Below, one piece after another: positions 7,984 through 29,423 of a stretch of 29,760 nt of DNA. Position numbers and translations under genes: made by a program. The notes below the pieces were generated by a model. The model had not been told where the DNA came from and did not search any database. It saw only the letters and a list, made by a program, of their open reading frames with translations. Location of the stretch: the IMG/VR virus record IMGVR_UViG_3300032315_001656, positions 1 to 29,760 of that record; one strand, given 5' to 3'. Source of the DNA: a virus. Positions within the stretch are counted from its first letter, which is position 1, and each line of letters opens with the position of its first letter.

Positions 7984-7998
7984 TCGATCCAAAAAAGA
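7984..7998 (-). promoter_or_regulatory. Motif-family site a (candidate promoter/operator)
   Basis: Minus-strand TCTTTTTTGGATCGA, partly shared with the T-tract of the terminator just upstream and 20 bases before the GTG at 7963. It matches 13 of 14 positions in the core of site f (TCTATTTTGGATCG). A second element, TAGAATCCGAAC, follows and touches the start codon. Confidence 0.45.
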
Positions 7999-8039
7999 GG
8001 TGCGCCCGCAGCCGGTAGGAGTAGCTCGACTGCGGGCGC
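7991..8039 (-). terminator. Rho-independent terminator (minus strand)
   Basis: Perfect 9-base arms (8002-8010 and 8031-8039) form a GC-rich hairpin read on the minus strand, followed within a few bases by six T (7991-7996). It lies downstream of the 704-residue fibre gene and separates it from the gene starting at 7963. Confidence 0.85.
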
Positions 8040-8110
8040 GGTGGCGGGTTGGTTCCAAGCAAGGACTCGGTTGCGGCCTGCACCCACCACTAACTCAACG
8101 GCCGCGAAAT

Positions 8111-10225
8111 CTAGCGGTAGCTGCCGGCGTTGGCCATCTCCGCATCGGTCAATGCCCGGTCCCAGATCACCACATTCTTGATGCAGATGTCCACCTTGCC
8201 GGCGCTCACGTTGCTGCCGAGGCGGATGGTGCTCGCCTTGTTGGCGATGGGCACGGTCGTCGGGATGCCGGCGCCGACACCGCCAGTGAAGTACGCCTTG
8301 ATTCCTCCCAGCGTCATGAAGCTGCCGCCCCCGGCTTCGTTGCGTGCGACGCTCGCTTGCCCGAAGAACTGCTTGACCGTCTGCCCACGCTGGGTCACGA
8401 GCCCGGTGCGGACCTGGACGCCGTCGAAGCCGACGGTGTTCGGGTAGTAGTCCTGCGCCCATCCAGCCGCGTCGCGGTCGCCTGCGTTGCCGCCGGCAAC
8501 GCCCGGCCGGATGCACGTGCCCCAGCGGTTGTTGTTGTCGAAGTAACTGTAGGCGATGTAGTGGAACCCGGTCTTGGTCCTGCTGTCGGACCGCGCCCCC
8601 ATCAACGTGAAGTCGAGGTGGAAGGTGAAGTCGTTCGCCGGCACGTTGCTGGTGATCGGCACCTCGACGTGGCCGTCTCCCCGCACGCTGACCGCAGTGG
8701 TCGTGTGGCCCACGTAGGCCGTCACGTGGTCCGCCTCGGTGGCCATCGGCGCGGCCACGTACAGGCCGTTGCCAGCCACGCCCGCGTAACTGGTCACGCC
8801 GTCGTCAGATGCGACGCCGAGGGTGAACCGGGGCGCAGTGGCGCCGGCGCCGACCGGCTCTGCATGCCCGATGCGCCACCAGTCGTTGATGCCCGTGCTG
8901 TAGGCGTACAGGTCGGCCACGTCGATGCCTGCGTCCACCACGCCCCAGACACCGCGCTCCAGATCGAACCACGCGCTGCGGGTCGTGGTGCCGTCCGCGA
9001 GCCGCGTGCTGATCCGCACCCACTTGCGGCCGGGCCCGCGGCGCACGTACCAAGCGTTCGGGATCGGCGCGCTGGTGCTGGCAGGCAGCGTCCCGCTCCA
9101 GTCTTGGAACAGCTCGAACGCACCCGTGGTGGCGGTCTCCGGCAGGAAGTAGCAGTGGTTGCGGCCGACCGGGTTGGCCACGTTCTGTACCCGAGCCACC
9201 GCCCCCAGGTTGGTCTTTTGCCAGGGCGTCGCGGTGCTGACTGTCGGGCTGGCGATGGCAGTCAGGTCCGCCGTCTGGAGCAGCCGCTGCGTGGCGGGCG
9301 GCGGGCGGCGGACCCCGAGGAAGGTCGCTTCCGGGATCGGCGCCCGGTCGAGGAAGTCGAACACGTTGCCGTCGGCTTCCAAGAAGCTGTACGGCAGCAC
9401 GTCGAAGTAGCGGACGCCGTCCACGCCAGCGCCCTGGAACGGCCATGCGGCGCCGGCTTCGCCGCGGGTCACGAACTCGCTCGGGTGCGGCACCTGATCG
9501 ACCTTGCGCTCGACCAGGATCTCGTCCATGCCGAAGCTGGTGCCGGCCACCAGCCCGAAGACGATCCGGTGGATCGTGCCGTCAGCCGGCGTGAAAGCCA
9601 GCGCCCGGCGGGCCGGCGTCGAGCTGATCGTGATGTCCCTGGTGGCGACGACCAAGTTGTCGCCGCTGCGGATGGCCTGGATGCGCAGAGTGACCGAGCC
9701 CGACGCCGCCCAGAACTTGCCGCTGATCACATGCAGATCCTGCTCGTAGGTCAACGAGTTCATCGTGATCATGGTCGTCGAGGCCGACGGCCGGGTCACG
9801 AGGACGCCTCTGTTGGCCGTGGCCGAGCCGCCGATGTACGTGCGGTCGGTGACTTGGCCGGTGGCATCGAGCGTCCAGCCGGTCGTCATGTTCCGTGCGT
9901 CGGGGCACAGGTTCTCGACCCGGCGCAGGCCCTCGTAGCCGAGTTCGTTGGCCCGGATGAGGTGCAGGTAGCCCTGGTAGTCGTGGATGCTGCTGACGCC
10001 CGTGCGGACGTACTGGACGAGCACGTTGTCGCTGTTGCGCCAGAGGTCCGCGTAAGGCGTGCCGCGCAGGCTGAACTTGGCGCGGGGGCCGTCGGCGAGG
10101 TTCCCGGTCCACAAGCCGTTCACGACCCTGCCCAGCGGGCCGGACGCGGCGGACCACAGCCCGTCGATCTGCTCGCGGGTGAACCCGGCGGCGAGGCCCC
10201 AGACGAGCAGCTCCGGGTAGTTCAC
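8111..10225 (-). CDS. Large tail fibre / receptor-binding protein with LamG-like C-terminus
   Basis: A 704-residue protein. The GTG at 10225 is chosen because it overlaps the holin stop as GTGA and is preceded by AAGGACG; the longer open frame upstream covers the holin and other genes and is a shadow. Residues 1-20 (NYPELLVWGLAAGFTREQ) match the N-terminus of the 236-residue protein at 10645-11355, suggesting a common attachment segment. A carbohydrate-binding-module-like region follows (ENLCPDARNMTTGWT; FWAASGSVTLRIQAIRSGD). The C-terminal 200 residues look like a LamG/concanavalin sandwich ending VVIWDRALTDAEM, a typical closing strand of that fold. Probable role: host surface glycan binding. 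No depolymerase active site could be assigned. Confidence 0.8.
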   Translation of the reverse strand: MNYPELLVWGLAAGFTREQIDGLWSAASGPLGRVVNGLWTGNLADGPRAKFSLRGTPYADLWRNSDNVLVQYVRTGVSSIHDYQGYLHLIRANELGYEGLRRVENLCPDARNMTTGWTLDATGQVTDRTYIGGSATANRGVLVTRPSASTTMITMNSLTYEQDLHVISGKFWAASGSVTLRIQAIRSGDNLVVATRDITISSTPARRALAFTPADGTIHRIVFGLVAGTSFGMDEILVERKVDQVPHPSEFVTRGEAGAAWPFQGAGVDGVRYFDVLPYSFLEADGNVFDFLDRAPIPEATFLGVRRPPPATQRLLQTADLTAIASPTVSTATPWQKTNLGAVARVQNVANPVGRNHCYFLPETATTGAFELFQDWSGTLPASTSAPIPNAWYVRRGPGRKWVRISTRLADGTTTRSAWFDLERGVWGVVDAGIDVADLYAYSTGINDWWRIGHAEPVGAGATAPRFTLGVASDDGVTSYAGVAGNGLYVAAPMATEADHVTAYVGHTTTAVSVRGDGHVEVPITSNVPANDFTFHLDFTLMGARSDSRTKTGFHYIAYSYFDNNNRWGTCIRPGVAGGNAGDRDAAGWAQDYYPNTVGFDGVQVRTGLVTQRGQTVKQFFGQASVARNEAGGGSFMTLGGIKAYFTGGVGAGIPTTVPIANKASTIRLGSNVSAGKVDICIKNVVIWDRALTDAEMANAGSYR

Positions 10226-10638
10226 TGGCCGTCCTTCTTGTCGTCGAGCGGGGCAGGTCGGGTCGGCGGCACGCCCATCTTCTGCTCGGCGAAGCGCTGG
10301 AGCCACACCTCGCCGATGGTGAGGGCCTTGGCGCCGGCGTGGCCGGCCAGTCCCGCCGCCGCCCCCGTGATGCCCAGCGGCATCTCCAGGTAGTCGCAGA
10401 TCAGGAACGCCAGCAGGCCGGCCAACGCGGACACCATGAACTCGCCCACCAGGGCGAAGATGTTCGTAGCGGCCAGCTCGCCCCGCTTGACTTTCAAGTA
10501 CCAGCTCACGGCGCCGCCCAGCAGCGCCATGACCAGGATGAACAGCCAGTTGCGGATCGGCTGATCCAGCGGGTTCTTGGGCTCGGCGATGGCGGCGCCG
10601 GCCAGCAGCGCGATGATTGCGGCGATCAACTTCTTCAT
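10222..10638 (-). CDS. Holin, LydA/phage holin III-like
   Basis: A 138-residue membrane protein. Residues 1-18 (MKKLIAAIIALLAGAAIA) look like a signal sequence or first membrane span. Further spans lie near 29-48, 60-81 and 86-107, followed by a charged C-terminal tail (DDKKDGQ). The core (NWLFILVMALLGGAVSWYL, then ALAGLLAFLICDYLEMPLGI with a Gly/Ala-rich last span) matches the pattern of the LydA-type holin family. It would form lesions in the inner membrane to time lysis. It lies between fibre genes with short or overlapping junctions, and no endolysin gene is adjacent or elsewhere in the window. The start has no strong ribosome site and may rely on coupling to the upstream gene. Confidence 0.8.
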   Translation of the reverse strand: MKKLIAAIIALLAGAAIAEPKNPLDQPIRNWLFILVMALLGGAVSWYLKVKRGELAATNIFALVGEFMVSALAGLLAFLICDYLEMPLGITGAAAGLAGHAGAKALTIGEVWLQRFAEQKMGVPPTRPAPLDDKKDGQ

Positions 10639-10644
10639 GGCGGG

Positions 10645-11355: not shown

Positions 11356-11374
11356 GGCGTTTGCCCTCTGTGGC

Positions 11375-11659: not shown

Positions 11660-11660
11660 G

Positions 11661-11837: not shown

Positions 11838-11846
11838 CGCGCAGCC

Positions 11847-15344: not shown

Positions 15345-16472
15345 TTACTGCGCGACGAACGCGGACAGCACGCCGAAGTCTTCGACGGTGTTGTTCTCGT
15401 AGATCGTGCCGAACTTGGGCTTCAGGAAGCCGAGGATCTTGCCGATGGCGATGCCTTGGCTGTTCTCGTAGTCGAAGCCCTTCTCGTTCCACTCGGGGGC
15501 GCCGATGTCGGCCATGCCCAGCGCCTGCGCGCCGCAAAACAGCACCTGCGAGCCCTCGATGTTCAGGCCCGAGCCGTACTTGCCCACGCCGCTGACGGCC
15601 CTCGACACGTTCGGCACGTGCCGGAACTCGTGCAGGTAGATGCCGTCGATCTTGACCGTGCTGCCGGTGAACAGCGTGTCGTTCTTGCTGGCCTGGGTCG
15701 AGTGCCGCAGGTTCTGCAAGTACGTCGGGTCCAGCTTCAGCTTGGCCATCGCCTGCGGGGTCAGGAAGGCGTGGTAGGTCTCCTCGCCGCCCTCGGCGTT
15801 CACGCCGCGGATGTAGCGGTCCTTGGCGTACGCCTTGAGCTGCACGAACAGTTCCCACGACGGGGTGTCGGTGGCGACCACCGAGCCCGAGGTGTTGCTG
15901 CCCGACACGCTGTCCCGCAGCGCCTTGGCGGTGTTGTCCCAGCGCAGCATGCGCTTGGGCGACGGCACGGTCACGTCGTTGGCGAAGTCCAGGAACGGCA
16001 GGTCCGAGCCGGTGCGGGTCGAGCCGTCCGGGCGGGTGCCGAAGCTGCGGCCGCCCAGGGCGCTGAACGCCATCTGGTCGATGCGGTCGGCCAGCCAGTA
16101 GGCCAGCACGTCGCGGCTGTTGTTGCGGAACTCGACCACCGAGCGCTGGTCGGCCATCTTGCCTTCGTGGCGGTTGGCGTGACGGAGCTGGTCGATGCGG
16201 ATGACCTGATCGAAGGTCTGCATCGCCTCTTCGTTGCCCTCCAGGGTGCGGTCACCGGCCACGCCGTCGCCGGTCAGGTCGGCCAGCAGCGTGATGACGG
16301 CGCGGGCGCCCTTCTCGGACTTCTTCAGCTCGGTGATGTGCTGGATCAGCGAGTTCGGGCCCTTGCCCAGGAACTTGTTGACGAAGCTCATGTTGCGCGC
16401 TTGGCGCCACAGGTCCATCGACCAGACGGTCTTCTGCTCGTTGGTGAGCAGGGCAAAGTTGGTGAGTGCCAT
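15345..16472 (-). CDS. Major capsid protein, N4 gp56 family
   Basis: A 375-residue protein with a near-perfect ribosome site (AAGGAGG, 6 bases before the ATG at 16472), the strongest in the window and as expected for a major capsid gene. Family features seen: an N-terminal KTVWSMDLWRQARNMSFV region, then ALTNFALLT ahead of it, VITLLADLTGDGVAGDRTLEGNEE, the conserved IDQLRHANRHEGKMADQRSVVEFR and ADRIDQMAFSALGG. These match the N4-gp56 family of HK97-fold major capsid proteins, and the length fits (about 350-400). The gene has its own upstream terminator and motif sites, so it likely heads a strongly expressed late transcript. Confidence 0.92.
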   Translation of the reverse strand: MALTNFALLTNEQKTVWSMDLWRQARNMSFVNKFLGKGPNSLIQHITELKKSEKGARAVITLLADLTGDGVAGDRTLEGNEEAMQTFDQVIRIDQLRHANRHEGKMADQRSVVEFRNNSRDVLAYWLADRIDQMAFSALGGRSFGTRPDGSTRTGSDLPFLDFANDVTVPSPKRMLRWDNTAKALRDSVSGSNTSGSVVATDTPSWELFVQLKAYAKDRYIRGVNAEGGEETYHAFLTPQAMAKLKLDPTYLQNLRHSTQASKNDTLFTGSTVKIDGIYLHEFRHVPNVSRAVSGVGKYGSGLNIEGSQVLFCGAQALGMADIGAPEWNEKGFDYENSQGIAIGKILGFLKPKFGTIYENNTVEDFGVLSAFVAQ

Positions 16473-16590
16473 GTGGCACCTCCTTCACGGATCAGGAACA
16501 AGACTTGTGGCCACTCGGCCGCCTTGCCGTGTCTCGTCACGACCAACGATGCGTGTGGGTTGCTCTCGTGAACCCGACCTGAAACCGGAA

Positions 16591-16605
16591 TAGATCGAAG
16601 TCTAA
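16591..16605 (-). promoter_or_regulatory. Motif-family site c (candidate promoter ahead of capsid gene)
   Basis: Minus-strand TTAGACTTCGATCTA. Its ACTTCGATC core recurs at 28016-28024 and 29413-29421, each time upstream of a gene start. It lies about 120 bases before the capsid ATG and just after a terminator, where a capsid promoter is expected. Confidence 0.5.
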
Positions 16606-16616
16606 TCGAAAAAAGA
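16602..16616 (-). promoter_or_regulatory. Motif-family site b
   Basis: Minus-strand TCTTTTTTCGATTAG, overlapping the T-tract of the terminator and the next motif copy. It resembles site e (TCTATTTTCGATTAC) at 12 of the first 14 positions or better. Confidence 0.4.
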
Positions 16617-16637
16617 CGGCCCGCAAGAGCGGGCCGT
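16609..16637 (-). terminator. Rho-independent terminator (minus strand)
   Basis: A perfect 9-base GC-rich stem (16616-16637, loop of 4) is followed on the minus strand by six T (16609-16614). It lies downstream of the gene ending at 16680 and upstream of the capsid gene, so it closes the packaging/portal/scaffold transcript. Confidence 0.9.
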
Positions 16638-16679
16638 GTGAACTCGTGCTTTCAGGCCACGAGAGGAGACAACTGGGGA

Positions 16680-17278: not shown

Positions 17279-18330
17279 AGGTCGTCTCCCCGCAACCGGG
17301 CCTTCTCGGACTCGGGCAGCTTGGCAAAGTCGTCCTGGCTCATCTTCATGACCGCCTCGGCCGTGATGACGCCGCCGAGCTTGTCGTGGTCCGCGCCGAC
17401 GCCCTTGGTGCTGGGCGGCTGGGCAGCGGCCACCTTGCCGTTCTTGGCGCGCTGGGCAGCGGCGCGGTCAGCGGCCTTGGCCTTGGCCACGTCCTCGGTG
17501 GTCACGCGCACCTCGGTGTTCACCGCGGTGGCCTGCTTGGCGGTCTTCACGCCGACCAGGGTCTCGGCAGCCTTCTTGATGGCCTGGGCGCGGGTGTACT
17601 TGCCGGTGGCGATGAAGCCGTCGCGCAGCTCGACCACCTCGGCCATCAGCTCGGCGTCAAAGTCGTCGTGGTCTTCGTTCAGCACCGGGTACGCCGCTTC
17701 GAGGCGCTCCACGGTGTTGTCGTACTGCACGCGCTCGTAGGCCCGTGCCTCGGCTGCCTGGACCTCGAAGGTCTGGCGGGCCTGGTTGATGCCCCGCTCG
17801 GTCCGGCGGATTTCGCCCATCTTCACGGCGGCCTTCTCGTGCTCACCGTCGCTGACCAGCTTGGCGTACTCCTTCTCCAGCGTCAGCAGCGCGGTCTCGG
17901 CGGCGGCGATCTGCTCGTTCGTCGTGGCGATGGACTCGGCCTGCTTGGTGGAGGCGAGCTGGCGCTCCAGGGCCTCGCGCTGGGCGCGCTCCTTGGCCAG
18001 AATCTCCTTGTGCCGGGCCAGCGGGATGCGCGTGTCCTTGCGGGTCTTCTTGTCGTCCTTCTCGGCCTTGTCCTCGTCGTCCTCTTCGTCGGCGTCCGGG
18101 TTGTCCGGGTCGACGTCCTTCTCGTCCTCGGGCGCCGGCGCCTCGGTCTTCACCGGCTTGGCCTTGGGCACCTTCTTGAGGTCGTCGTCGGTGATCGTGA
18201 CCTCGGGCTCGCCCTTGGCGTCCGGGCCGGTGGGTGTGAAGTCGTCGCCGCGGTCGAGCGTGGCAGCGCCGCCGCCAGTGTCATCACCGGCCGGGCCCAT
18301 GTAGCGGTTGAAGATCCAGTGCAGCTTCAT
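17275..18330 (-). CDS. Scaffolding protein (acidic, coiled coil)
   Basis: A 351-residue protein with AAGGAA upstream of the ATG at 18330, which overlaps the portal stop (ATGA). The N-terminal 90 residues are disordered and very acidic (ITDDDLKKVPKAKPVK followed by DEKDVDPDNPDADEEDDED). Next come long helices suited to a coiled coil (RHKEILAKERAQREALERQL, then TALLTLEKEYAKLVSDGEHE). The C-terminus is Ala/Lys-rich and ends charged (KLPESEKARLRGDDL). The position between portal and major capsid genes, with these traits, is typical of a procapsid scaffold that is lost during maturation. The assignment is by composition and gene order; no catalytic site is present. Confidence 0.8.
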   Translation of the reverse strand: MKLHWIFNRYMGPAGDDTGGGAATLDRGDDFTPTGPDAKGEPEVTITDDDLKKVPKAKPVKTEAPAPEDEKDVDPDNPDADEEDDEDKAEKDDKKTRKDTRIPLARHKEILAKERAQREALERQLASTKQAESIATTNEQIAAAETALLTLEKEYAKLVSDGEHEKAAVKMGEIRRTERGINQARQTFEVQAAEARAYERVQYDNTVERLEAAYPVLNEDHDDFDAELMAEVVELRDGFIATGKYTRAQAIKKAAETLVGVKTAKQATAVNTEVRVTTEDVAKAKAADRAAAQRAKNGKVAAAQPPSTKGVGADHDKLGGVITAEAVMKMSQDDFAKLPESEKARLRGDDL

Positions 18331-20462
18331 TTCGGGGTTCCTTGGGTTGCGGGTTGGGGTTGGGGTTGGCTGGCCTGCTGAACGCGGACCATCCGCTCGG
18401 TCGCTGCCTGCTCTTCCCGCAGGCGGGCTTCTTGCGCCGCCTCACGGGCTTCGAGCTGCTGGTCGAACTCGAACTTCCGCTCGGCCAGCTCCATCTCCTG
18501 ATCGGCCTTCTCGCGGTTGATCTGCATGTCCGCCTGGGCGGTCATCATCTTGACCTCGATGCCGTTGTCCTCGGGCGGCGTGATCGCCTCCTTCTGGGCG
18601 GTCACGCGCTCCTTGGCGGCTTTGGCCTGCTTCAGGCCGGCGTCGGCGTTCTTCTGGGCAATCTCCGCCTCGGTCTTGCCGACCTCGGCCTGCGCGGCGC
18701 GCTGCGCCAGCTCGCGCTGGGCCTGCGCCTCCGGCGAGTCCTGACCGGCGCGCATCTTCTCGATGATCGACTTCTTGTCGATCAGGCGGCTGGCGTCGAT
18801 CAGCACCTCGTCAGGGATCATCACGCCCATCTCGCGCAGTGCCACGGCCTGATCGAACTGGCTGTCCTCCAGGGTCTCGCGCTGCGGCGCCGAGCCGATC
18901 ACCACGTCGTAGACGCCCAGCGTCAGGTCGTTGACGATTTCGCCCTCGGGCGTGACTTCGTTGATCGTGAAGGTCTCGGTGTCGCCGGTGATGCGGTCCT
19001 TGGTGATCGTCAGGATGCGCTCCTCGGTGTAGAACTCCTGCACGAGGTCCAGCACGTTGCGCGCCAAGACGAAGTCCGTGCGCACCAGGGCGTCCAGCGG
19101 CTTGGCGAGGTTCGTCGTGCCGGCTTGGCGCTTGGCCTGGATCGCCTTGGCAGCCACGTCCTCGCGGTCGTGGCCCTGCATCGAGTCGCTGACGCCGCTG
19201 ATCGTCTTGATGTGCTCTTCGGCCTTGTAGGACACCCGGTCCAGGCCGGTGGGCATGGTGTTCGGGGTGATCTTGACCAGATCCTTGTCCGGGTCGCCGT
19301 TCACCTCGACGACCAGCCCGGTCTCGGCACCGCGCTGCTCCAGCTCTTCGGTGCTCATGTTCGTCAGCGCGCCCGAGCGCAGCTTCCAGCCGCTGTTCGC
19401 GGTGGTGTTGATGACGTGCAGCTCCTGGCTGGAGGTCTTGTTCAGCAGCTCTTGCGGGCCCAGCAGGTTCTCGACGAGGCCGATGGTCTTGCCGTAGCGG
19501 AAGTACGGGAAGTACGGCACCACGGTGAAGTGCTTGTAGGGGCTCCACTCGTCCTTCAGGACGAAGTTGTCGCAGACCACGACCCACTTGATGCGGTGGA
19601 CCATCCGCGGCACGACCTGGAAGCCGTATTTCTCGACGAACCACGCGATCTTGTTGCGGTCGAAATCTTCGGGGATCGGCCGCATGTCGCCGGTCTGCGG
19701 CGCGAGGAAGTGCTTCTGGCGGTCCAGCGTGCGGTACTGGCGCTCGATGACGCGCATGTTCCGCTGCACGCTCGACTGGTCGAACGGGCCGGGGTACGCC
19801 GGGTTGAAGCGGTCGCCGAAGCGGTCGCGGCCGGCCTGGATGGAGTCGTAGCCGTACGGGAAGAAGCTCTGCTCGCGGTTGCGCAGCGCCTCGCCGTCCT
19901 CCTTGCCGTACAGGATGACGATGTCGTCGGCGGTCATCCACTTCGTCGTGAAGACCTCGTTCCACGTGTCCGGATCGAACTGCTCGGCGTCCGGGTCGAC
20001 GATGACGTTCTTCGGGTTGATGTTCTCGATGACCACGTCGCCCTGCATGTTCTCGTCGAACTCCATGCGGACATCGAGAAAGCCCCGGCTCGTGATCACG
20101 CCGTCGGCGAACATGTCGCTGCGCTTCCAGTCGAGCTGGTTGCGGTCGCTGATGTGCTTGAACACCTTGGTGAGCACCGCAGCGGTGTCGGTGGACGCCT
20201 TGGTGCGCGGCCGGAACGACACCTCGTTGCGGCGGAAGATCTGCTCGCCCATGACGTTGCCGAGCGTGCTGATGATCTTGTTGATCGTCAGCGCCGGGCG
20301 GCGCTGCTGCTTGAGCCTCAGCCTGTCCTCGGCCGACCACTGGTCGCCAGCGAAGAACTTCTCGCACTGGTCCGCCTTGTCGACGAAGCGGTTGTGGCCG
20401 TTGTCGCGGCACCAGGCGTACCTGTACCAGACCTTCATCGCGTCGGCGGTATTCAGCGGCAT
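18327..20462 (-). CDS. Portal protein, P22 type
   Basis: A 711-residue protein with AAGGG upstream of the ATG at 20462. Family features: an early FFAGDQWSAEDRLRLKQQRRP followed by PALTINKIISTLGNVMGEQ, then NEVSFRPR; a central DVRMEFDENMQGDVVIENI and KNVIVDPDAEQFDPDTW; later FPYFRYGKTIGLVENLLGPQ. These are hallmarks of the P22 gp1-like portal family. The C-terminal 180 residues (from about residue 530) form a long Gln/Glu/Ala-rich helical barrel-like tail ending in a Gln/Pro-rich stretch. The portal forms the dodecameric DNA gate at one capsid vertex, docks the terminase and binds the tail adaptor. Confidence 0.93.
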   Translation of the reverse strand: MPLNTADAMKVWYRYAWCRDNGHNRFVDKADQCEKFFAGDQWSAEDRLRLKQQRRPALTINKIISTLGNVMGEQIFRRNEVSFRPRTKASTDTAAVLTKVFKHISDRNQLDWKRSDMFADGVITSRGFLDVRMEFDENMQGDVVIENINPKNVIVDPDAEQFDPDTWNEVFTTKWMTADDIVILYGKEDGEALRNREQSFFPYGYDSIQAGRDRFGDRFNPAYPGPFDQSSVQRNMRVIERQYRTLDRQKHFLAPQTGDMRPIPEDFDRNKIAWFVEKYGFQVVPRMVHRIKWVVVCDNFVLKDEWSPYKHFTVVPYFPYFRYGKTIGLVENLLGPQELLNKTSSQELHVINTTANSGWKLRSGALTNMSTEELEQRGAETGLVVEVNGDPDKDLVKITPNTMPTGLDRVSYKAEEHIKTISGVSDSMQGHDREDVAAKAIQAKRQAGTTNLAKPLDALVRTDFVLARNVLDLVQEFYTEERILTITKDRITGDTETFTINEVTPEGEIVNDLTLGVYDVVIGSAPQRETLEDSQFDQAVALREMGVMIPDEVLIDASRLIDKKSIIEKMRAGQDSPEAQAQRELAQRAAQAEVGKTEAEIAQKNADAGLKQAKAAKERVTAQKEAITPPEDNGIEVKMMTAQADMQINREKADQEMELAERKFEFDQQLEAREAAQEARLREEQAATERMVRVQQASQPQPQPATQGTPK

Positions 20463-20912: not shown

Positions 20913-21166
20913 GGCAGGCGCACCATCAGGGTGGCGGTCGTGCCGGTGGCGTAGACCTGGGTCACCAGCACCGGCAGCACGGTGCCTGCGGCCACGCCTG
21001 AGAACGTGACCGGCCCGACGCCGTCAGCGGGCATCACCGCCACTGCGCCGGCGCCGCCGACGTAGATGGCCGAGGGTGCGAACACGGTGCCGTCGCTGGG
21101 CGTCACGGCAGCAGCCGAGAAGCCACCGACGGCGCGGACGAGCTGAGCAGCGAAAGGCAGAGGCAT
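20909..21166 (-). CDS. Spike base-like small structural protein
   Basis: An 85-residue protein with AGGA 6 bases before the ATG at 21166. The sequence (AAVTPSDGTVFAPSAIYVGG, GAVAVMPADG, VTFSGVAAGTVLPVLVTQVYATGTTAT) is the pattern of small phage proteins described as spike base proteins (RCAP_Rcc01079-like): TPSDxT, then AxxIYVGxAG, then TFxGVPAGTxLPVxVxxVxATGTTAT. Unusually it sits in the packaging block rather than near fibres. The family match is from memory of the pattern, so moderate. Confidence 0.7.
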   Translation of the reverse strand: MPLPFAAQLVRAVGGFSAAAVTPSDGTVFAPSAIYVGGAGAVAVMPADGVGPVTFSGVAAGTVLPVLVTQVYATGTTATLMVRLP

Positions 21167-21175
21167 GGCGATCCT

Positions 21176-21397
21176 TCAGGGGTGGGCGCAGTAGTGCGGC
21201 GAGCCGAGGCCGTTGAGCGACTTGCCGCACTTCAGGCAGTGGCCGAGCGCGCCGAGCAGGCTGGGCGGAGTGGGTGCGGGCGGGGTGTGGACTGGGCCGA
21301 CGCGGTCCACGGCGTCGCGGACGGTGGCCGGGTCGAACGTGCCGACGGCGCCGGCGAGGTAGCCGCGAATCCACCAGACGAACTGGTCCGCGGTCAT
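21176..21397 (-). CDS. Small phage protein with C-terminal zinc-ribbon-like motif
   Basis: A 73-residue protein. The ATG at 21397 is chosen for its ATGA overlap with the TerL stop. The N-terminal part (TADQFVWWIRGYLAG) is a motif found in many short phage proteins of unknown role. A Pro-rich linker follows, then CLKCGKSLNGLGSPHYC. The pair CxxC plus a distant Cys and nearby His could bind one zinc. It ends 9 bases before the ATG of the spike-base-like gene. Confidence 0.7.
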   Translation of the reverse strand: MTADQFVWWIRGYLAGAVGTFDPATVRDAVDRVGPVHTPPAPTPPSLLGALGHCLKCGKSLNGLGSPHYCAHP

Positions 21398-23103
21398 GCG
21401 CTCATGTGCCCGCCGCTGCTCGACAGGGCTCTCAGCCGGTCTTTCCATGACTTCACCACCTGTGCTCTGGGTTTCTGCGGCGGGGTCCGAGCGATAGCCA
21501 GATGTCCAACCCAGGCCAGGGAGTCGACGCAGTCGTCATGCACGCCGGCCGGGAACCTCAGCATCTCGGCGCGGACCACGTCGTACCACTCGCCGCTGTC
21601 CGAGAAACTGACCATGCCCTGCTGCATGCGCCCCTGGATCGCCCTGGCCCGAGCCATCTTGTCGGTGATCGGCGTCAGCACCTGGATCGACGGATACAGC
21701 TTCCGTTCGAGCATGCGCTTCTTCAGCACCGCGCTGATGGCCTTGTAGATCTGGCCGTCTTCAAACCCTAGAACTAGCGTCGGACTGTACCATTTCGACG
21801 CTAGATCCAAAATAGATTCCACGATGAAGAACGCGTCCTGGCTGCGGAACCGGACCACGTCCGCCACGTGCAGCACATCGTTCTCGTCCTGAAGCCCCAC
21901 AGTGCCGACCGTGTAGTCGTTCTGCTTCTTCTCGCTGATCGCAAAGTCCCAGGCGATCATCACGTTGGCCCGCTTCACGTGCGGCACCGGCCCGCGCCGG
22001 AACTGCTCCTTGTTGAAGTAGACGCCGTCGTCAGGGACAGGGTTCTGCTGGTACAGCGCGCTCCACCAGCGCCCGTCTGAGCCGTCGCTCTTGCGGTTCA
22101 GGGCCCTGATCTTGCTGAGCGCCTTGATCGGGTAGCGGCTGGGGTGCAGCGCCTCGCCCTTGCTGCGCAGCAGCGTGGCGCCGGGCGTGGGCGTGTTGTG
22201 GACGATCCGGTTCGTGACGGGGTCCAGGTACTCGTCCGACTCGGCGATGGCCGGGTACTTCACGACCTCGAACTTGTCGATGTCGTCGTCGTCCTCGCCG
22301 GCCGCCATCATCTGCTGGAGCCGGCCGGCCAGATCGTCGTCGTGCCACCACGTCTGGATCACCAGCACGCCTCCGCCGGGCGCCAGCCGCGTGTAGGCCG
22401 TCGAGAGATACCACTCCCAGATCTTCTCGCGGGCGTCGCCGCTGTCAGCCTCTTCGGCGTTCTTCACGGGGTCGTCGATCACCAGGACGTGCGCGCCCTT
22501 GCCGGTGATCGGCCCGCCGATGCCGGCCGCGACGTACCCGCCGCGCCTGCCGGCGATGGCCCACTCTTCCGTGCTCTGGTTGTTCTTGTCCAGGCTCACG
22601 TCGAACACCGTCTTGTAGAGGGTGTCGTCGATGATCTGCTTGACCTTGCGGCTGAAGCCCATCGCCAGGGACAAGTTGTACGAGCAGGCGATGAACTCGT
22701 GGTCCGGGAAGCGCCCCAGGTGCCACGCAGGGAAGTTCTTGGACGCCAGCTCGCTCTTGCCGTGCCGCGGGGGCATCAGCAGCATCAGCCGCGGGCTCTT
22801 GCCGGCCGCCACGTCGTCGCTGAAGCGCTCCAGGCGGGCGCAGATGTCCCGGTGGACCCAGCCGTCGTCGTAGCGGTCGTTCATCCGCTTGACGAACGGC
22901 AAGAAGCGGCGCCGCGCCAGGATGCGGCTGGCCATCTCGACCTGGGCGAGCTGCTTGGGGCGGCTCAGCGGCGGCAGAGGCCGGGCGAGGCTCGGATCTT
23001 GGGCCAGCGCCTGGGCAACCTGCTCTTCGCGGGTGCCCTGGAAGCGGCTGAGGTCGGGCTCAGACGGTGAGGTTAGCGTCGAGGATGCCGGCAGCTCGGG
23101 CAA
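21394..23103 (-). CDS. Terminase large subunit (packaging ATPase-nuclease)
   Basis: A motor ATPase that translocates and cuts DNA at the portal. Numbered from a TTG at 23103: Walker A PPRHGKSE at 111-118, Walker B VLVIDD near 206-211, coupling motif QTWWHDDD at 249-256, and a C-terminal nuclease with AWDFA (Asp about 385), LGFEDG (Glu about 446) and HDDCVDS (Asp about 522). The start is uncertain. The frame is open back to an ATG at 23493, but that part overlaps the 160-residue gene and lacks the G/C third-position bias. Bias is present between 23060 and 22935, ahead of the first later ATG (22935), so I favour the TTG at 23103 (GGAG just upstream). Codons near 21764-21826 are unusually AT-rich. 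Confidence 0.92.
   Translation of the reverse strand: MPELPASSTLTSPSEPDLSRFQGTREEQVAQALAQDPSLARPLPPLSRPKQLAQVEMASRILARRRFLPFVKRMNDRYDDGWVHRDICARLERFSDDVAAGKSPRLMLLMPPRHGKSELASKNFPAWHLGRFPDHEFIACSYNLSLAMGFSRKVKQIIDDTLYKTVFDVSLDKNNQSTEEWAIAGRRGGYVAAGIGGPITGKGAHVLVIDDPVKNAEEADSGDAREKIWEWYLSTAYTRLAPGGGVLVIQTWWHDDDLAGRLQQMMAAGEDDDDIDKFEVVKYPAIAESDEYLDPVTNRIVHNTPTPGATLLRSKGEALHPSRYPIKALSKIRALNRKSDGSDGRWWSALYQQNPVPDDGVYFNKEQFRRGPVPHVKRANVMIAWDFAISEKKQNDYTVGTVGLQDENDVLHVADVVRFRSQDAFFIVESILDLASKWYSPTLVLGFEDGQIYKAISAVLKKRMLERKLYPSIQVLTPITDKMARARAIQGRMQQGMVSFSDSGEWYDVVRAEMLRFPAGVHDDCVDSLAWVGHLAIARTPPQKPRAQVVKSWKDRLRALSSSGGHMSA
21802..21816 (-). promoter_or_regulatory. Motif-family site d, inside terL
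   Basis: Minus-strand TCTATTTTGGATCTA inside the coding frame of TerL (encoding residues near SILDL). With the flanking bases it matches site f at 16 of 17 positions (GGAWTCTATTTTGGATC). The surrounding 20 codons are atypically AT-ending, so the site may be kept for its DNA sequence. Confidence 0.4.
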
Positions 23104-23542
23104 CGACTCCGAGGTCGAACTTGGCCGGCTTGCGCGTGGCTTGCTCGGCGGCGGCTTTGGCGTGCCGGTCTGCGTCCGCACGGTCGCCGAAGCTCGGCCT
23201 CCAGCCCCTGAAGGCGTCGCGGACGGCTTGGGGGCTTTGGGGCCTGCCTTCTTTGCGGAAGCTGTACGAGATGCTGGCGCCTTTGATTTCGGCGACGCGC
23301 TCGTCGAAGGCTTGCCGGTAGGCTTTGCAGAAGGCTTCGCTGCTGCCGTTGGCGACGTAGCGGCGGAGTTCGGTGTTGCAGGGGTCTTGCGGGTCGATTT
23401 CGCCGCAGAGGGCTGCCTGGAAGTCGACGTACGACCGGCCGTAGCCGTCGAACTGACGGACGAGTGGGTCGAAGGGAGCTTCTTGGACGGCATCAGTCGC
23501 TGTCTCCGTCATCCCCGCTGTGTGCAAGCTGTTCGAGGTCAT
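23060..23542 (-). CDS. Unknown protein encoded between terS and terL
   Basis: A 160-residue protein. The ATG at 23542 (AAGG 9 bases upstream) gives a 50-base overlap with terS; the ATG at 23512 is the alternative. It is the real frame here: third positions are almost all C or G, unlike the overlapping long TerL-frame extension. Sequence features: DPLVRQFDGYGRSYVDF, three Cys within residues 45-80, and a C-terminal region with DRADADRHAKAAAEQATRKP then LGVVARAAGI, probably helical. No known domain is recognised. Its place in the terminase cassette suggests a packaging accessory, but that is guilt by association. Confidence 0.75.
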   Translation of the reverse strand: MTSNSLHTAGMTETATDAVQEAPFDPLVRQFDGYGRSYVDFQAALCGEIDPQDPCNTELRRYVANGSSEAFCKAYRQAFDERVAEIKGASISYSFRKEGRPQSPQAVRDAFRGWRPSFGDRADADRHAKAAAEQATRKPAKFDLGVVARAAGILDANLTV

Positions 23543-24161
23543 GTTGAACGCCTTGTTGGATCATGCGCAGCAGTTCGGCGTCGCTGAGCTTGCTCATCTG
23601 CTGCATCGTGACGTTGCCGGTGACATTGATGTCCAGCGTGCGCTTCACCGGCTCAAAGTAGCCGCACATCTGGCCCACGGTCTTCCAACCAGTGATCACT
23701 GAGGCCGGTTCGCCGGCCAGTTTTGCCATCTCGATGCCCTCCAGCAGCCCGTCCATGACCTTTTTGCGGGTCATCTGGCAGGACTCTTCGTACAGGCGCT
23801 TCTCTTCCGCGTAGAGGGCCTTGACCTGGGGGTAGTGAACGAGGCGGTAGGCGTAGGTGGCGCCGTCACCGTACCCGGCGCGTGCAGAAGCTGAGGTGAT
23901 CGACTCGCCCTGCGCCCAGAACTTGACGAACAGCTTGGCCTTCTCGGTCAGGGGCTTGTTCGGATCGACCGACTCGGCGATTTCGTGACGCGGCAGCGCG
24001 CTCACATCGACGTATTTGCTGCGGTTGTCGGCGACGACAACGGGCATCTTGGCGGCGGATTGGCCGCGCTTCTTCGGCTGTGGCTTGGCCACGACTTTCA
24101 GACCTTTGCCATTGCCGTGGCGATTGAGGCCGTCGGGGTTGGGCGGGAGGCGCTTGGTCAT
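23493..24161 (-). CDS. Terminase small subunit
   Basis: A 222-residue protein. A basic N-terminus (KRLPPNPDGLNRHGNGKG; KPQPKKRGQSAAKM) leads to the helix-turn-helix region of small terminases: LTEKAKLFVKFWAQGESITS then ASARAGYGDGATYAYRLVHYP, which recognises viral DNA. Next is a helical oligomerisation region (VMDGLLEGIEMAKLAGEPAS) and VGQMCGYFEPVKRTLDI, as in this family, then an acidic C-terminus (HSGDDGDSD). It recruits the large subunit to the packaging site. The ATG at 24161 has no Shine-Dalgarno; TTAGACTCC lies 9-17 bases upstream, suggesting a short or absent leader. The stop overlaps the downstream genes. Confidence 0.88.
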   Translation of the reverse strand: MTKRLPPNPDGLNRHGNGKGLKVVAKPQPKKRGQSAAKMPVVVADNRSKYVDVSALPRHEIAESVDPNKPLTEKAKLFVKFWAQGESITSASARAGYGDGATYAYRLVHYPQVKALYAEEKRLYEESCQMTRKKVMDGLLEGIEMAKLAGEPASVITGWKTVGQMCGYFEPVKRTLDINVTGNVTMQQMSKLSDAELLRMIQQGVQHDLEQLAHSGDDGDSD

Positions 24162-24178: not shown

Positions 24179-24184
24179 CGGCTT

Positions 24185-24199
24185 TCTATTTTCGATTAC
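24185..24199 (+). promoter_or_regulatory. Motif-family site e, at the 3' end of the HNH gene
   Basis: Plus-strand TCTATTTTCGATTAC, overlapping the HNH stop codon. With site f it forms a direct repeat (TTCTATTTTsGAT) flanking the HNH gene. Its orientation is opposite to that of neighbouring minus-strand genes. Confidence 0.4.
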
Positions 24200-24648
24200 T
24201 TGACGTAGAAGTTGTTGCCCTTCTTGCCGTTGGTCGTCCGAAGCACGACTCTGAGATTGGCGGGGACGTGCAGCCCGCACACCAAAGGATGCTTGAGTGG
24301 GATGACGTGGTCCACCACGTACTCCGGCCCGGCTTTGACCGCCTTCTTGCACACCGGGACGAAGTCGGTGATCGACACCCACGGCGGAATGCGAGTGCGG
24401 CGTTTGGCGGAGTTCCAGAGATTGAAGGCGCGCTTGTAGGCGGGCTCGCGCTCAAAGCGCAGTTGCTTCACTCTAGCCGTCCGCGCCTTTGTGGCCTCGC
24501 GCTCTGTCGGTCGCGCCCAGTAGCTCGTTTGCTTTGCCGCGGCGAGGCACACACGACATGCGGCAGAGCGTCCGTCGCCTGATGCGCGGCGAACAACGAA
24601 GTCGGCAAGCGACTTGACTGCGAAGCATCGGGAGCAGGGCTTTTGCAT
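24196..24648 (-). CDS. HNH endonuclease
   Basis: A 150-residue protein. N-terminal Cys pairs (CSRC at 5-8, CRVC at 31-34) form a zinc-binding knuckle typical of phage HNH proteins. A basic helical linker follows. The HNH core runs VVDHVIPLKHPLVCGLHVPANLRVV at about 111-135 with His114, His127 and Asn131, then TNGKKGN at 139-145. It cuts DNA with one metal ion at the His/Asn centre. Next to terminase genes, HNH proteins either assist packaging cuts (as HK97 gp74) or are mobile homing-type genes. The first Cys is at residue 5, so the ATG at 24648 is the likely start although it lacks a Shine-Dalgarno. Confidence 0.88.
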   Translation of the reverse strand: MQKPCSRCFAVKSLADFVVRRASGDGRSAACRVCLAAAKQTSYWARPTEREATKARTARVKQLRFEREPAYKRAFNLWNSAKRRTRIPPWVSITDFVPVCKKAVKAGPEYVVDHVIPLKHPLVCGLHVPANLRVVLRTTNGKKGNNFYVK

Positions 24649-24655: not shown

Positions 24656-24685
24656 ATTCTATTTTGGATCGCAGGTATTTTGCAA
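24656..24685 (-). promoter_or_regulatory. Sigma70-like promoter, probably leaderless (HNH gene)
   Basis: Read on the minus strand: TTGCAA (24685-24680), an 18-base spacer, then TAGAAT (24661-24656). The ATG begins 7 bases after the -10 box, so the transcript would start at or very near the start codon. The -10 is embedded in the reverse complement of motif site f. Confidence 0.45.
24658..24672 (+). promoter_or_regulatory. Motif-family site f, divergent junction
   Basis: Plus-strand TCTATTTTGGATCGC in the intergenic region between the minus-strand late genes and plus-strand early genes, about 195 bases before the first early gene. It could serve either direction: as an early promoter/operator rightward or as part of the HNH promoter leftward. 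Confidence 0.45.
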
Positions 24686-24798
24686 ATTTTTCTGGTGGCC
24701 GAGGGCGCGTGAGTCTCTTCTCCCTAGCTCTCCGAACGAAGGGGTGCCTTCGGATTCGGGTTCCGCTACGGGAGAAAAGGATGCTTATCTACCGCCCA

Positions 24799-24821
24799 GC
24801 CGCTCATCTTCGATGAGCGGC
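24799..24821 (+). terminator. Early-region hairpin 1 (triloop TTC)
   Basis: Ten-base perfect arms around TTC, followed by GTCG. It lies between the divergent junction and the first early gene. There is no T-run. It is the first of several similar hairpins in the early region, so it may be an attenuator or RNA-stabilising element rather than a classical terminator. Confidence 0.55.
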
Positions 24822-25052: not shown

Positions 25053-25060
25053 TCCACCAA

Positions 25061-25084: not shown

Positions 25085-25130
25085 GTCGTTCCGCTCTCGT
25101 GTTCTTCAACTTCCTTTCAGGAGATTCACC

Positions 25131-25612: not shown

Positions 25613-25620
25613 GTTGGTTC

Positions 25621-25643: not shown

Positions 25644-25697
25644 GTCGTTCTGCTCTTTTGCCTTTCTGGCCCTTTGTCAACCTAACGGAGAATGTGT

Positions 25698-26171
25698 ATG
25701 TCCAAGTTCGCTCAAGCCAAGCCCGCCGCCAAGAAGACCATCGTCAAGCCCGCGGCGCCGCGTGCCCGCACCACGCACGTGGAGGTCGAAGACGTCGAGG
25801 TCGTCGGCCCCGAAGACGACGTGCAGAGCGCGTACCAACGCATCCGCGACGCGGCCGAGTCGCTGTTCGCTCGGCTGCACCGCCCCTCGTGGACGCGCAC
25901 GTTGATCAACGCCACCATCGGCTTGGTCAGCTACGCGTCCGTCTGGTACGGAAGCATGGTCCTGCTGGACATGCTGATGCTCGGCGTCGTGGCTTACACC
26001 GGCCTCGGCTTCATCTCGTTCCTCGTCGCCTTCCTCGGCGTGGTGCTGAGCTTCATGGCCGCGTTCAAGGCCGGGAAGCTGGCCTACGACTTGGCCGCCG
26101 CGTTCGAGTTCAGCAGCGTGAAGAGCCGCGTCACCGGCTGGTTCAGCTTCGGCAAGCCCGCGGCTGCGTGA
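25698..26171 (+). CDS. Membrane protein with basic N-terminus
   Basis: A 157-residue protein. The ATG at 25698 is chosen over 25692 because CGGAG then has a 7-base spacing. Residues 1-25 are Lys/Ala/Pro-rich, and 26-42 are acidic (HVEVEDVEVVGPEDD). A helix with basic patches (AESLFARLHRPSWTR) precedes two membrane spans near 69-90 and 92-122. The C-terminus (KSRVTGWFSFGKPAAA) is probably cytoplasmic. Family unknown. It overlaps the next frame as GTGA. It likely sits in the host inner membrane during early infection; the role is not known. Confidence 0.75.
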   Translation: MSKFAQAKPAAKKTIVKPAAPRARTTHVEVEDVEVVGPEDDVQSAYQRIRDAAESLFARLHRPSWTRTLINATIGLVSYASVWYGSMVLLDMLMLGVVAYTGLGFISFLVAFLGVVLSFMAAFKAGKLAYDLAAAFEFSSVKSRVTGWFSFGKPAAA

Positions 26172-26185
26172 TCGGGAGGCCGATC

Positions 26186-26864: not shown

Positions 26865-26868
26865 AACC

Positions 26869-27060
26869 ATGGCCACACGGCTCACGTTCATGCCGGTCGA
26901 GGTCAGCATCTTCGACAGCTTGTCGGCAGCAATTGCCTACGAGCTGCATGCAGAGCTGCCCGACGAAACTTCGTGGGGCGCCGACCCCTTCGACATCCTC
27001 GCAGCCAAGGAGGAGGAAGCCGGCATGTCGCTCATCGACATGCCCGATGACGACGACTGA
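26869..27060 (+). CDS. Very acidic small protein
   Basis: A 63-residue protein; the ATG is 4 bases after the preceding stop, and the ribosome site is weak (AGG at longer distance), so coupling is likely. It has 16 Asp/Glu against three basic residues (Arg, Lys, His), ending IDMPDDDD. Such charge is found in phage DNA-mimic inhibitors of host nucleases or transcription, but also in many ordinary small proteins. No structural signature proves mimicry. A hairpin follows 5 bases after the stop. Confidence 0.65.
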   Translation: MATRLTFMPVEVSIFDSLSAAIAYELHAELPDETSWGADPFDILAAKEEEAGMSLIDMPDDDD

Positions 27061-27065
27061 TCGCT

Positions 27066-27088
27066 CTGGCCTGCGTTCCGCAGGCCAG
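27066..27088 (+). terminator. Early-region hairpin 4 (triloop TTC)
   Basis: Ten-base perfect arms (27066-27075 and 27079-27088) around TTC, then GTCGTGCTGCC. It follows the stop of the acidic protein by 5 bases. No T-run. Confidence 0.6.
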
Positions 27089-27130
27089 GTCGTGCTGCCT
27101 TCATGTGTTCAACCCTGAAGGATGAGGTTC

Positions 27131-27421
27131 ATGATGAACCTGACACCTACCGTTGTTTCCATGGAGCTTGTGGTCGTCGACTACAAGGTGCTGGCTGAGA
27201 TGAGCGATGGATCGCTCATCGAACTCAGCACACCGTGGGGGGCGCCACCCGAGCGCGACCTCACGAGCCACAGCATCATCGGGTGGCGGTTCAAGACCCG
27301 CGAACAGCTCATCGAGCTGGCTCGCCGCTTGAACAGCCAGCGTCGGGATGACGCGAACTATCGCCTGCACCTCGACAAAGTGCGGCGACTGGGCTGGGAC
27401 TACGCATCACGCGGGTACTAG
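27131..27421 (+). CDS. Small early protein of unknown function
   Basis: A 96-residue protein. ATG codons at 27122, 27131 and 27134 are in frame. AAGGATGAGG sits best for 27131 or 27134. The N-terminal half is a beta-rich domain (VVSMELVVVDYKVLAEMSDG, SLIELSTPWGAPP). The C-terminal half is a basic helix (TREQLIELARRLNSQR, RLHLDKVRRLG). It might bind nucleic acid, but no motif confirms this. It is the last gene before a long stretch without a clear gene; a hairpin begins 7 bases after the stop. Confidence 0.7.
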   Translation: MMNLTPTVVSMELVVVDYKVLAEMSDGSLIELSTPWGAPPERDLTSHSIIGWRFKTREQLIELARRLNSQRRDDANYRLHLDKVRRLGWDYASRGY

Positions 27422-27427
27422 CCCACA

Positions 27428-27456
27428 GCGGGTGAGGCGAACAACCCCTCACTCGC
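27428..27456 (+). terminator. Early-region hairpin 5
   Basis: A ten-pair stem with one G-T pair (27428-27437 with 27447-27456), a 9-base loop, then TTCGTAGTTTGG. It follows the 96-residue gene directly and probably ends the small-gene cassette. Confidence 0.6.
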
Positions 27457-27640
27457 TTCGTAGTTTGGTGGAGTCCACACAACCACCCGGTGTGTCTCGG
27501 CTTCAATGCCGTTTGCCTCTGCTTGCCGGTATCAAGCAGCGTGTCCGCGTTAGGTGCGGCTCGTGAACATCAGCACGCATCACGCGAGGGTTGCCTACTG
27601 CCCTAGCTGGAACACGTCACCAGCGCCACCAACAAGGAGA

Positions 27641-27664
27641 ATGATGATGACTCTGTGCGCGTAA
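27641..27664 (+). other. Seven-codon ORF with strong ribosome site
   Basis: ATGATGATG follows AAGGAGA directly and runs ACT CTG TGC GCG TAA. It may be a leader peptide or the remnant of a gene broken by a nonsense change. Confidence 0.35.
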
Positions 27665-27709
27665 GGAACATCGCGCCCTCCATTCCGGGTATCTGAACTT
27701 GAACCTCTC

Positions 27710-27865
27710 ATGGCGACGTTCAAGGGACAGCCGGACGCAGACATGCCGCACTACGTCGGAGCCTCTGCGTACCCTCAGACACCCGGCACTCATGGCTGGC
27801 CCACGTCACGGGTCGACATGCGTCACTTGGACGCTGGCTCGAACGAGACCTCGGTTCTCTACTAG
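27710..27865 (+). CDS. Possible 51-residue protein (weak)
   Basis: An ATG-to-TAG frame with about three quarters G/C at third positions: begins MATFKGQPDADMPHYVGASA and ends with NETSVLY. There is no Shine-Dalgarno site, and no known family. It is the only frame in the 27457-28011 stretch with coding-like bias. It could be real, or a remnant. Confidence 0.3.
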   Translation: MATFKGQPDADMPHYVGASAYPQTPGTHGWPTSRVDMRHLDAGSNETSVLY

Positions 27866-28011
27866 GCCACTTCACCATCACTCGCGCTCGATGACAGCGT
27901 TGCGCGATGTCCCGGCTGAGCTGCCGAGTTACCAACCCATCCGACCATCCGGAGTGCGTTGCATGCACTGGGGTATGGGCTCCACCACACGGGCCCGATT
28001 CGCTCTTTGTT

Positions 28012-28026
28012 TCTTACTTCGATCCA
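28012..28026 (+). promoter_or_regulatory. Motif-family site g ahead of the 354-residue gene
   Basis: Plus-strand TCTTACTTCGATCCA, 22 bases before the ATG at 28049. The core ACTTCGATC is identical to sites c and h. Confidence 0.5.
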
Positions 28027-28048
28027 ACTTCAACCCGAGGAAATCACC

Positions 28049-29113
28049 ATGCCCAAGACCCACACCGTCACCCCCGGCACCATGACCACGATGGCTGCCG
28101 CGTTCCAACAGGCCGAGCAGTTCATGGCCAACCAGCCGAACGACCTGCCGCCGGCCGACTCCGCACCGACCGACCTGCCCGTGGTCGTCGTGCAGCCCAG
28201 CGCCGGCGTGCAGATCGACGGCTTCCTCGACTTCATCGACCAGCTCGCCACCACGGCGCAAGCGCGGCGCTACGTGATGTGGTCTGCGGCGAACAGCCTC
28301 AACAACTACATCATCGCCAACCTCCAAACGCACATCCGCTCGGAGACGCGCCAGTCGCAGGAGGTCAACCAGGACGTCGAGTACCTCAGCTCGCTGGGTC
28401 TCGACCAGACCACCATCGACAGGTTCAACGAGCAGAAGGCTTTGATCGACGAGATGCGTGCCAACGGTGCCAACCTCGTCGAGCAGGGCTACGAGGCGCT
28501 CATCCCGCCCATCGAGACCGCAGAGCGCCTGGTCAACCTGCGCGGCTACGTCGCCGAGAAGATGAAGGCCACGGCCAAGACCGTGCGTGACCTCGCGCAG
28601 CCGATTAGCGACAGCATCGCCTACAGGCTGTCACGCACGCCGTCGGTCGACGAGGGCCTCGTCATGCGCTGGTTCATCGCCTGCGACGGCAAGGTGTCTG
28701 TCGACGAGCTGCGCCGCGTCGCCATGCGGCAGCAGCTCAGCGACCGTGCGCAACTGCTGGAGCAGTCCGGGCGCATCATCGACCTGGCCAAAGACCTCGC
28801 CTACAGGGGTGCGCCCAGCGACGCTGAGGTCGAGTCGCTGTTCGACGAGCTGCCGATCCACGTGCAGTACAAGCTGCTGGGCGGCATCGTGCGCACGCTC
28901 AACGTCGCCATGGAGAAGGAAGTCGCTGCCTTCATCCGGTTCAACCGCCTGGACAGCATCGCCAACCGCACGCTGATCCAGTCCGTGCTGAACGGCTACA
29001 TCGACGCGTTCGGCAAGTTCGGCAGCGCCAATGCCGACGCGCTGATCGCCTACGAAGAGCGCGGCAGCAAGCTGCCCACGCTGGAAGAGCTGCTGGCCGA
29101 CAAGTCGGTCTGA
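28049..29113 (+). CDS. 354-residue protein of unknown function
   Basis: The ATG at 28049 has AGGA 8 bases upstream. The open frame extends 30 codons further, through site g, and that part is rejected. Residues 1-45 are Pro/Thr-rich and probably disordered. The rest is almost wholly helical: GFLDFIDQLATTAQARRYVM, later EQKALIDEMRANGANLVEQG, a region MRWFIACDGKVSVDELRRVA, and a C-terminal helix (LPTLEELLADKSV). No catalytic motif is seen. It lies alone between two motif sites and ahead of the primase gene, so it is probably expressed early and strongly; the role is unknown. Confidence 0.8.
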   Translation: MPKTHTVTPGTMTTMAAAFQQAEQFMANQPNDLPPADSAPTDLPVVVVQPSAGVQIDGFLDFIDQLATTAQARRYVMWSAANSLNNYIIANLQTHIRSETRQSQEVNQDVEYLSSLGLDQTTIDRFNEQKALIDEMRANGANLVEQGYEALIPPIETAERLVNLRGYVAEKMKATAKTVRDLAQPISDSIAYRLSRTPSVDEGLVMRWFIACDGKVSVDELRRVAMRQQLSDRAQLLEQSGRIIDLAKDLAYRGAPSDAEVESLFDELPIHVQYKLLGGIVRTLNVAMEKEVAAFIRFNRLDSIANRTLIQSVLNGYIDAFGKFGSANADALIAYEERGSKLPTLEELLADKSV

Positions 29114-29122
29114 CGCAGGCAC

Positions 29123-29152
29123 GCCGCCCAGGCCCTCAGGGGTCTGGGCGGC
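29123..29152 (+). terminator. Hairpin after the 354-residue gene
   Basis: Nine-base perfect arms (29123-29131 and 29144-29152), followed by TTCC. It starts 9 bases after the stop. It probably ends or attenuates the 28049 transcript. Confidence 0.65.
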
Positions 29153-29257
29153 TTCCACGTGCGGGCCAGGACTGAACGGACTACGCGATTTCTAGCGCCG
29201 TGACTGAGCGGCTAAAAACGGCCCTTGGAATTGCGCTGTTCCAAACCTTTTACATAC

Positions 29258-29304
29258 TACTCTCTCTTCTATATCTCTTCTTTTTTCTTAGAGTAGAGAG
29301 AGTA
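29258..29304. repeat. Inverted repeat in AT-rich stretch
   Basis: Perfect 10-base arms (TACTCTCTCT and AGAGAGAGTA) separated by 27 bases, within strongly polypyrimidine and polypurine halves. Confidence 0.75.
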
Positions 29305-29322
29305 TAAGTATAAGAGTATAAG
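29301..29322. repeat. Short direct repeats AGTATAAG
   Basis: Two exact copies (29301-29308 and 29315-29322) with TATAAG between them, giving a small tandem array of TATAAG units. Confidence 0.7.
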
Positions 29323-29408
29323 AGTAGAGAGGTGTAGAGGGAAAGCTGCCACATTTTTGAGCACGTCCCTTGTGTTCTTCCTAGTGAAGGACGGCCTGCG
29401 GACCGTTT

Positions 29409-29423
29409 TCTAACTTCGATCTA
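29409..29423 (+). promoter_or_regulatory. Motif-family site h ahead of primase
   Basis: Plus-strand TCTAACTTCGATCTA, 25 bases before the ATG at 29449. It shares ACTTCGATCTA with site c ahead of the capsid gene, on the opposite strand. Confidence 0.5.

Follow-up and report, generated by a model that had tools for sequence, protein, structure and literature searches.

A family of 15-bp palindromic sites, putative operators of one phage-encoded regulator, in an at least partly temperate clade of KPP25-like phages

Systems of repressor sites spread over the genome have been well worked out for some phage groups (e.g., those of mycobacteria and Bacillus). Short elements at many short-gap positions ahead of genes are also typical of T7-type promoters, which are asymmetric, require the phage polymerase and start transcription at a fixed base. 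In the cluster A mycobacteriophages L5 and Bxb1, the passages cited describe the stoperators as 13-bp, asymmetric sites that follow the direction of transcription and are occupied by a monomer (PMC9283540, PMC6550527). In Bacillus phage SPbeta, the 15-bp intergenic element SPBRE, first seen in silico, is bound by the master repressor MrpR, a degenerate tyrosine recombinase (PMC10516654).

The site family described here is similar to the stoperators, as portrayed in those passages, in its many genome-wide copies, located at promoters and in short intergenic gaps, in its clade-specific motif and in its occurrence in temperate phages. However, contrary to the stoperators so described, these sites are 15-bp palindromes with an 11-bp phasing and no orientation, and their phages are those of Gram-negative bacteria. 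Being symmetric, the sites do not constitute a cluster A stoperator system as defined. The likeness to SPBRE and MrpR lies in the 15-bp element at several intergenic places, whereas the phage group differs.

The stretch of DNA analysed, referred to here as the window, is a 29,760-base phage record from IMG/VR. Its portal protein shares 46-48% identity with those of the Pseudomonas phages KPP25, phiR18 and YMC17/07/R4900a, and 72% with that of G001, a metagenomic phage of 66 kb. Everything left of ~24.65 kb is encoded leftward, and the early genes run rightward, the start of a primase-type gene being the last in the window. This gene order is shared by the Kochitakasuvirus phages (KPP25, phiR18). 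The replication genes of G001 comprise DNA polymerase A, a helicase, a nuclease and a DUF5906 primase. The genes needed here are the following:

GTG start at 7963, leftward: head-closure gene
15345-16472, leftward: capsid gene
18327-20462, leftward: portal gene
21394-23493, leftward: terminase large subunit gene
23493-24161, leftward: terminase small subunit gene (ATG at 24161)
24196-24648, leftward: endonuclease VII-like gene
28049-29113, plus strand: gene of a 354-aa early protein
29449 onwards, rightward: primase-type gene, 5' part in the window (phrog_24712; DUF5906 in the G001 homologue)

The 354-aa early protein gave no match in Pfam, PHROGs or the collections of viral and phage records; for a G001 early protein located similarly, G002, G003 and G028 contain distant relatives (23-30%). 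Ahead of this gene, some 600 bases (27425-28045) hold no convincing gene and no tRNA or Rfam match. The leader of the early transcript (24700-24800, plus strand) contains the blocks TACCCCACTTCGGATTCG and AAGGATGCTTAT / AAGGAGTCTCTT, which are kept family-wide, KPP25 and G013 included; this leader had no match in an Rfam search of the window, and no common fold was found for it (alifold energy 0). Ahead of the primase gene, pyrimidine and purine repeats form an A/T-rich run (29240-29345), a possible replication origin, and most relatives have comparable runs at this place.

A first-pass annotation of the window had reported eight related 15-mers, a to h, all of which are present where it placed them and on the same strands. 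The pattern TCTWWYTTSGATY has seven matches in the window, with 0.0 expected from Markov simulations, and its reversed form has none. Scoring with a palindrome matrix, for which 78 sites from relatives but none from the window served as training set, gave the following registers:

7975-7989, minus strand: best palindrome register near site a (7984-7998 in the first-pass annotation), upstream of the head-closure gene, score 9.1
16593-16607, minus strand: site c, GATTAGA-C-TTCGATC, its left part doubling as the -10 box TAGACT at 16597-16602, score 9.7
16604-16618, minus strand: site b, in the terminator U-tract and promoter spacer, a weak neighbour 11 bp from c, score 9.2
21804-21818, minus strand: site d, AATCTAT-T-TTGGATC, within the terminase large subunit gene, score 13.6
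24183-24197, minus strand: site e, separating the endonuclease VII-like and terminase small subunit genes, score 13.0
24656-24670, no strand assigned: site f, where early and late genes diverge, score 9.2
28010-28024, plus strand: site g, TTTCTTA-C-TTCGATC, ahead of the gene of the 354-aa early protein, score 14.1
28021-28035, plus strand: a further, weaker palindrome, shifted by +11 bp from g and overlapping it, score 7.8
29407-29421, plus strand: site h, TTTCTAA-C-TTCGATC, some 30 bp ahead of the primase gene, score 18.4, the best in the window

This relatives-only matrix ranks h, g, d, e and then c at the top of the window, with b and f among the top eight. Seven of the nine window matches scoring at least 9 are intergenic, in a stretch with 8.3% intergenic DNA (binomial p ~9e-7), which bears out the earlier placement of the sites mostly before genes, with the exception of d. 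The first-pass annotation had named a motif as frequent within genes as between them as one finding that would speak against it, and the motif proved to be rarer within genes, both here and in G001, where 11 of 14 palindromes are intergenic and intergenic DNA makes up 11% of the genome. Its description of five of the sites as pointing into the next gene carries little meaning for a palindromic family. Site e as originally written faces away from the gene that it precedes; in its minus-strand reading, it stands 29 bp ahead of the ATG of the terminase small subunit.

Compared with the sites of the relatives, those of the window are weaker, only h having two or fewer mismatches to the palindrome, and they are degenerate members of the palindrome set of the clade. 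Orthologues of h lie upstream of the primase gene in G001, G003, G004, G005, G006, G028, G029 and PRO46, and h probably overlaps a sigma70-like promoter. Site f overlaps a leftward, minus-strand sigma70-like promoter, TTGCAA-N18-TAGAAT. The site-a register is followed by GACTAGAATCCGAACGTG, and the T-run of a comes after an inverted repeat. As first drawn, b and c share four bases and are thus not independent sites.

In the relatives, the canonical site is the 15-bp palindrome GATCTAA-S-TTMGATC. G001 has 14 places with two or fewer mismatches to it, against 0.15 for shuffled half-sites. The 11-base core TCKAANTTMGA occurs exactly 14 times in G001 (0.19 for shuffled half-sites), five times in G028 and four times in G003; it is absent from KPP25 and AP1, and not enriched in G009 or G013-G017. 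When all 5-base half-sites with gaps of 0-6 were searched de novo, without supplying the motif, TCTAAnTTAGA or ATCTAnnnTAGAT ranked first in G001, PRO46, G028 and G010 and second in G008. Unlike in the clade of the window, the palindrome was not enriched in KPP25 by the same search. Among 2.9 million viral contigs, the exact pattern was matched ten times; all clear members come from the clade of the window, the AT-rich ones looking like chance. The palindrome is found in this clade and absent from KPP25 and remoter relatives.

Neighbouring palindromes occur at exactly +/-11 bp of strong sites 29 times, against 4.5 in shuffled flanks, and at +/-7 bp 14 times, against 2.2, a phasing expected if dimers sit side by side on one face of the double helix. 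No orientation bias is seen, the left half being the better one in 42 sites and the right half in 32 (p=0.30); together with the palindrome recovered de novo, this sets the family apart from the asymmetric, oriented 13-bp stoperator. Two other descriptions were considered. An 11-bp direct repeat, (TTCGATCTAAC)n, is equivalent to overlapping palindromes that share GATC. A hairpin in the transcript is unlikely, since the TTC/TTA variants spoil the pairing without compensation; besides, d lies within coding DNA.

Site d encodes part of the sequence FIVESILDL in the terminase large subunit. In 19 carriers of the palindrome the codons of the site are A/T-rich, e.g., GAA TCT ATT TTG GAT CTA, and the site has the lowest third-position GC among 165 terminase windows in carriers (0.42, the mean of conserved columns being 0.84), whereas most non-carriers use ordinary GC-ending codons at the same residues. 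Judging from this codon usage, the DNA of site d is itself under conservation in carriers, beyond the protein that it encodes.

Sites b and c belong to a composite element upstream of the capsid gene (16590-16640, minus strand), in which a -35 box within a terminator hairpin is followed by a U-tract spacer, a -10 box and then a half-site. The hairpin is the following:

16616-16637, minus strand: intrinsic terminator hairpin ACGGCCCGCTCTTGCGGGCCGT, with TTGCGG in its loop and 3' arm as the putative -35 box

This terminator-promoter composite precedes the capsid gene in most relatives, as far as KPP25. The pairs of -35 and -10 boxes are TTGCGG-16-TAGACT in the window, TTGTCA-18-TACATT in G006, TTGATA-18-TACACT in G003 and TTGCAA-17-TATAGT in KPP25; thus the boxes lie 16-18 bp apart and are conserved in relatives, as in a sigma70 promoter, and the mean score of these promoters is 10.6, against 7.4 for shuffled sequences. 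Since this sigma70-like promoter is also conserved in relatives without the palindrome, promoter and palindrome are distinct elements that overlap in c. Taken over all leaders with the motif, sigma70 scores exceed those of shuffles only slightly (8.3 vs 7.0), so the sites in the middle of gene clusters are not obviously promoters. The leader of the capsid gene (16473-16590, minus strand) is also conserved in sequence among relatives and includes two small blocks, stem-like and centred on CGACA motifs.

The well-supplied carrier genomes have some 12-19 palindromes each, in early and late regions and for the most part in the short stretches ahead of start codons. Positions before the primase gene (h), before the capsid gene (c), within the terminase gene (d) and at the divergent junction (f) are orthologous, and are retained at 50-70% protein identity. 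Within gene clusters, some palindromes span the entire gap plus the previous stop codon (G001 55405, G003 18141). At several places the sites come directly after terminators, which suits promoters and operators alike.

The connection to lysogeny comes from G046, a 6.4-Mb bacterial MAG in which four of the five exact 13-mers lie on a single 120-kb contig. This contig carries PRO46, an integrated relative of the window phage, which has an integrase at its right end and whose borders, at 30146 and 100425, are marked by a 48-bp repeat (att) associated with tRNA-Val. All 12 strong sites of the contig fall within the prophage. A host regulon was considered and rejected, as the matches in G046 concentrate in the prophage. 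Five phage relatives encode tyrosine integrases, in keeping with a temperate life. The palindrome system is the phage's own, and some or all of the clade is temperate, as are the cluster A phages. No integrase was seen in the records of the carriers G008, G010 and G011, so that lysogeny may not extend to all carriers. The integrase of G001 is located at 21095-22084 on the minus strand (L089 1095-2084), and a stretch close to it, at ~19.7 kb, resembles the tRNA-Val att core of PRO46.

Circumstantial evidence points to a 124-aa protein as the candidate regulator. Its gene is known from relatives, beyond the reach of the window, and lies at 25730-26104 on the minus strand of G001. Both prophage contigs and the carriers G004, G005, G007, G008, G010 and G028 have homologues, and the non-carrier G015 has a diverged one. 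A palindrome lies upstream of the gene in G008 and G010, and after it in G001, G004, G005, G028 and PRO46. The AlphaFold2 model is a winged helix (pLDDT ~90 for residues 10-60), and Foldseek returned weak matches only, many of them to regulators of the Fur, MarR and PadR types (E ~0.02-0.1). Other searches of these genomes covered HTH_3 repressors, for which no consistent gene was found, and a second tyrosine recombinase like MrpR, where PF00589 gave one match per genome and a diverged copy could escape; two regulator-like plus-strand "genes" of G001 are antisense frames of conserved genes.

The sites are best explained as operators of one putative dimeric regulator encoded by the phage, most likely repressing in the prophage, a reading to which we would give a probability of roughly 0.6. 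Repression is the likelier sign because the sites are genome-wide, late gene clusters of temperate phages included. We infer that the regulator would bind the palindrome as a dimer, and that dimers may spread cooperatively on one face of the DNA, each neighbour one helical turn (11 bp) away. In the prophage, this would block initiation at the sigma70-like promoters (b/c, f and probably h) and, in the gaps of gene clusters, may also block elongation by a stoperator-like roadblock. A more specific proposal, which we hold only tentatively, is that of an undescribed genome-wide silencing in temperate KPP25-like phages, where the small winged-helix protein would polymerise along the 11-bp-spaced palindromes at promoters, gene gaps and the terminase gene, the roadblock sites being symmetric rather than directional.

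The first-pass annotation had left the choice between a phage-specific promoter and an operator for one phage regulator. The latter half agrees with the palindrome, the phasing, the lack of orientation bias, the concentration in the prophage and the variable distance to genes; the former is not supported. A promoter for a phage RNA polymerase, or for the host polymerase redirected by a sigma-like factor of the phage, would account for sites just ahead of starts, several of them directly after terminators, and for a placement in short gaps like that of T7-type promoters. However, the element is symmetric where T7-type promoters are asymmetric and oriented, its distance to the start codon is mostly 8 to ~60 bp and ranges up to ~140 bp, and the capsid gene already has its own conserved sigma70-like promoter. 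The T7-type polymerase family PF00940 had no match in 18 records, the control genomes being equally silent. On balance, we consider this explanation improbable.

Somewhat less so, but still unlikely, is that the sites are bound by a phage activator which turns on weak host promoters for timed lytic expression. Several primase leaders do have the palindrome directly followed by a TACACT-like -10 box without a good -35, but the spacing between palindrome and -10-like box varies (offsets of -20, -17, +2, +8 and +13), and the site-bearing upstream regions barely beat shuffles in the sigma70 scores given above. The sites could also be a mixture of unrelated features, a and b being terminator U-tracts, c and f -10 boxes, and d and e products of chance: b does combine a terminator tail with a -10 box, T-runs shape a, and phages without the palindrome have -10 boxes at the same place. 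Yet the matrix built from relatives alone puts the same sites on top, and d appears constrained as DNA, so that a mixture is largely refuted for d, e, g and h. It could apply to a, and to b as a separate site, and for the family as a whole we regard it as very improbable.

Returning to the operators of a phage regulator, the palindrome matrix already tells carrier phages from non-carriers. If true, a palindromic version of genome-wide repressor sites in phages of Betaproteobacteria would mean that this strategy arose with a different site geometry. As stoperators reportedly require one orientation, these palindromes would offer a way to learn whether a symmetric site is able to stop elongation.
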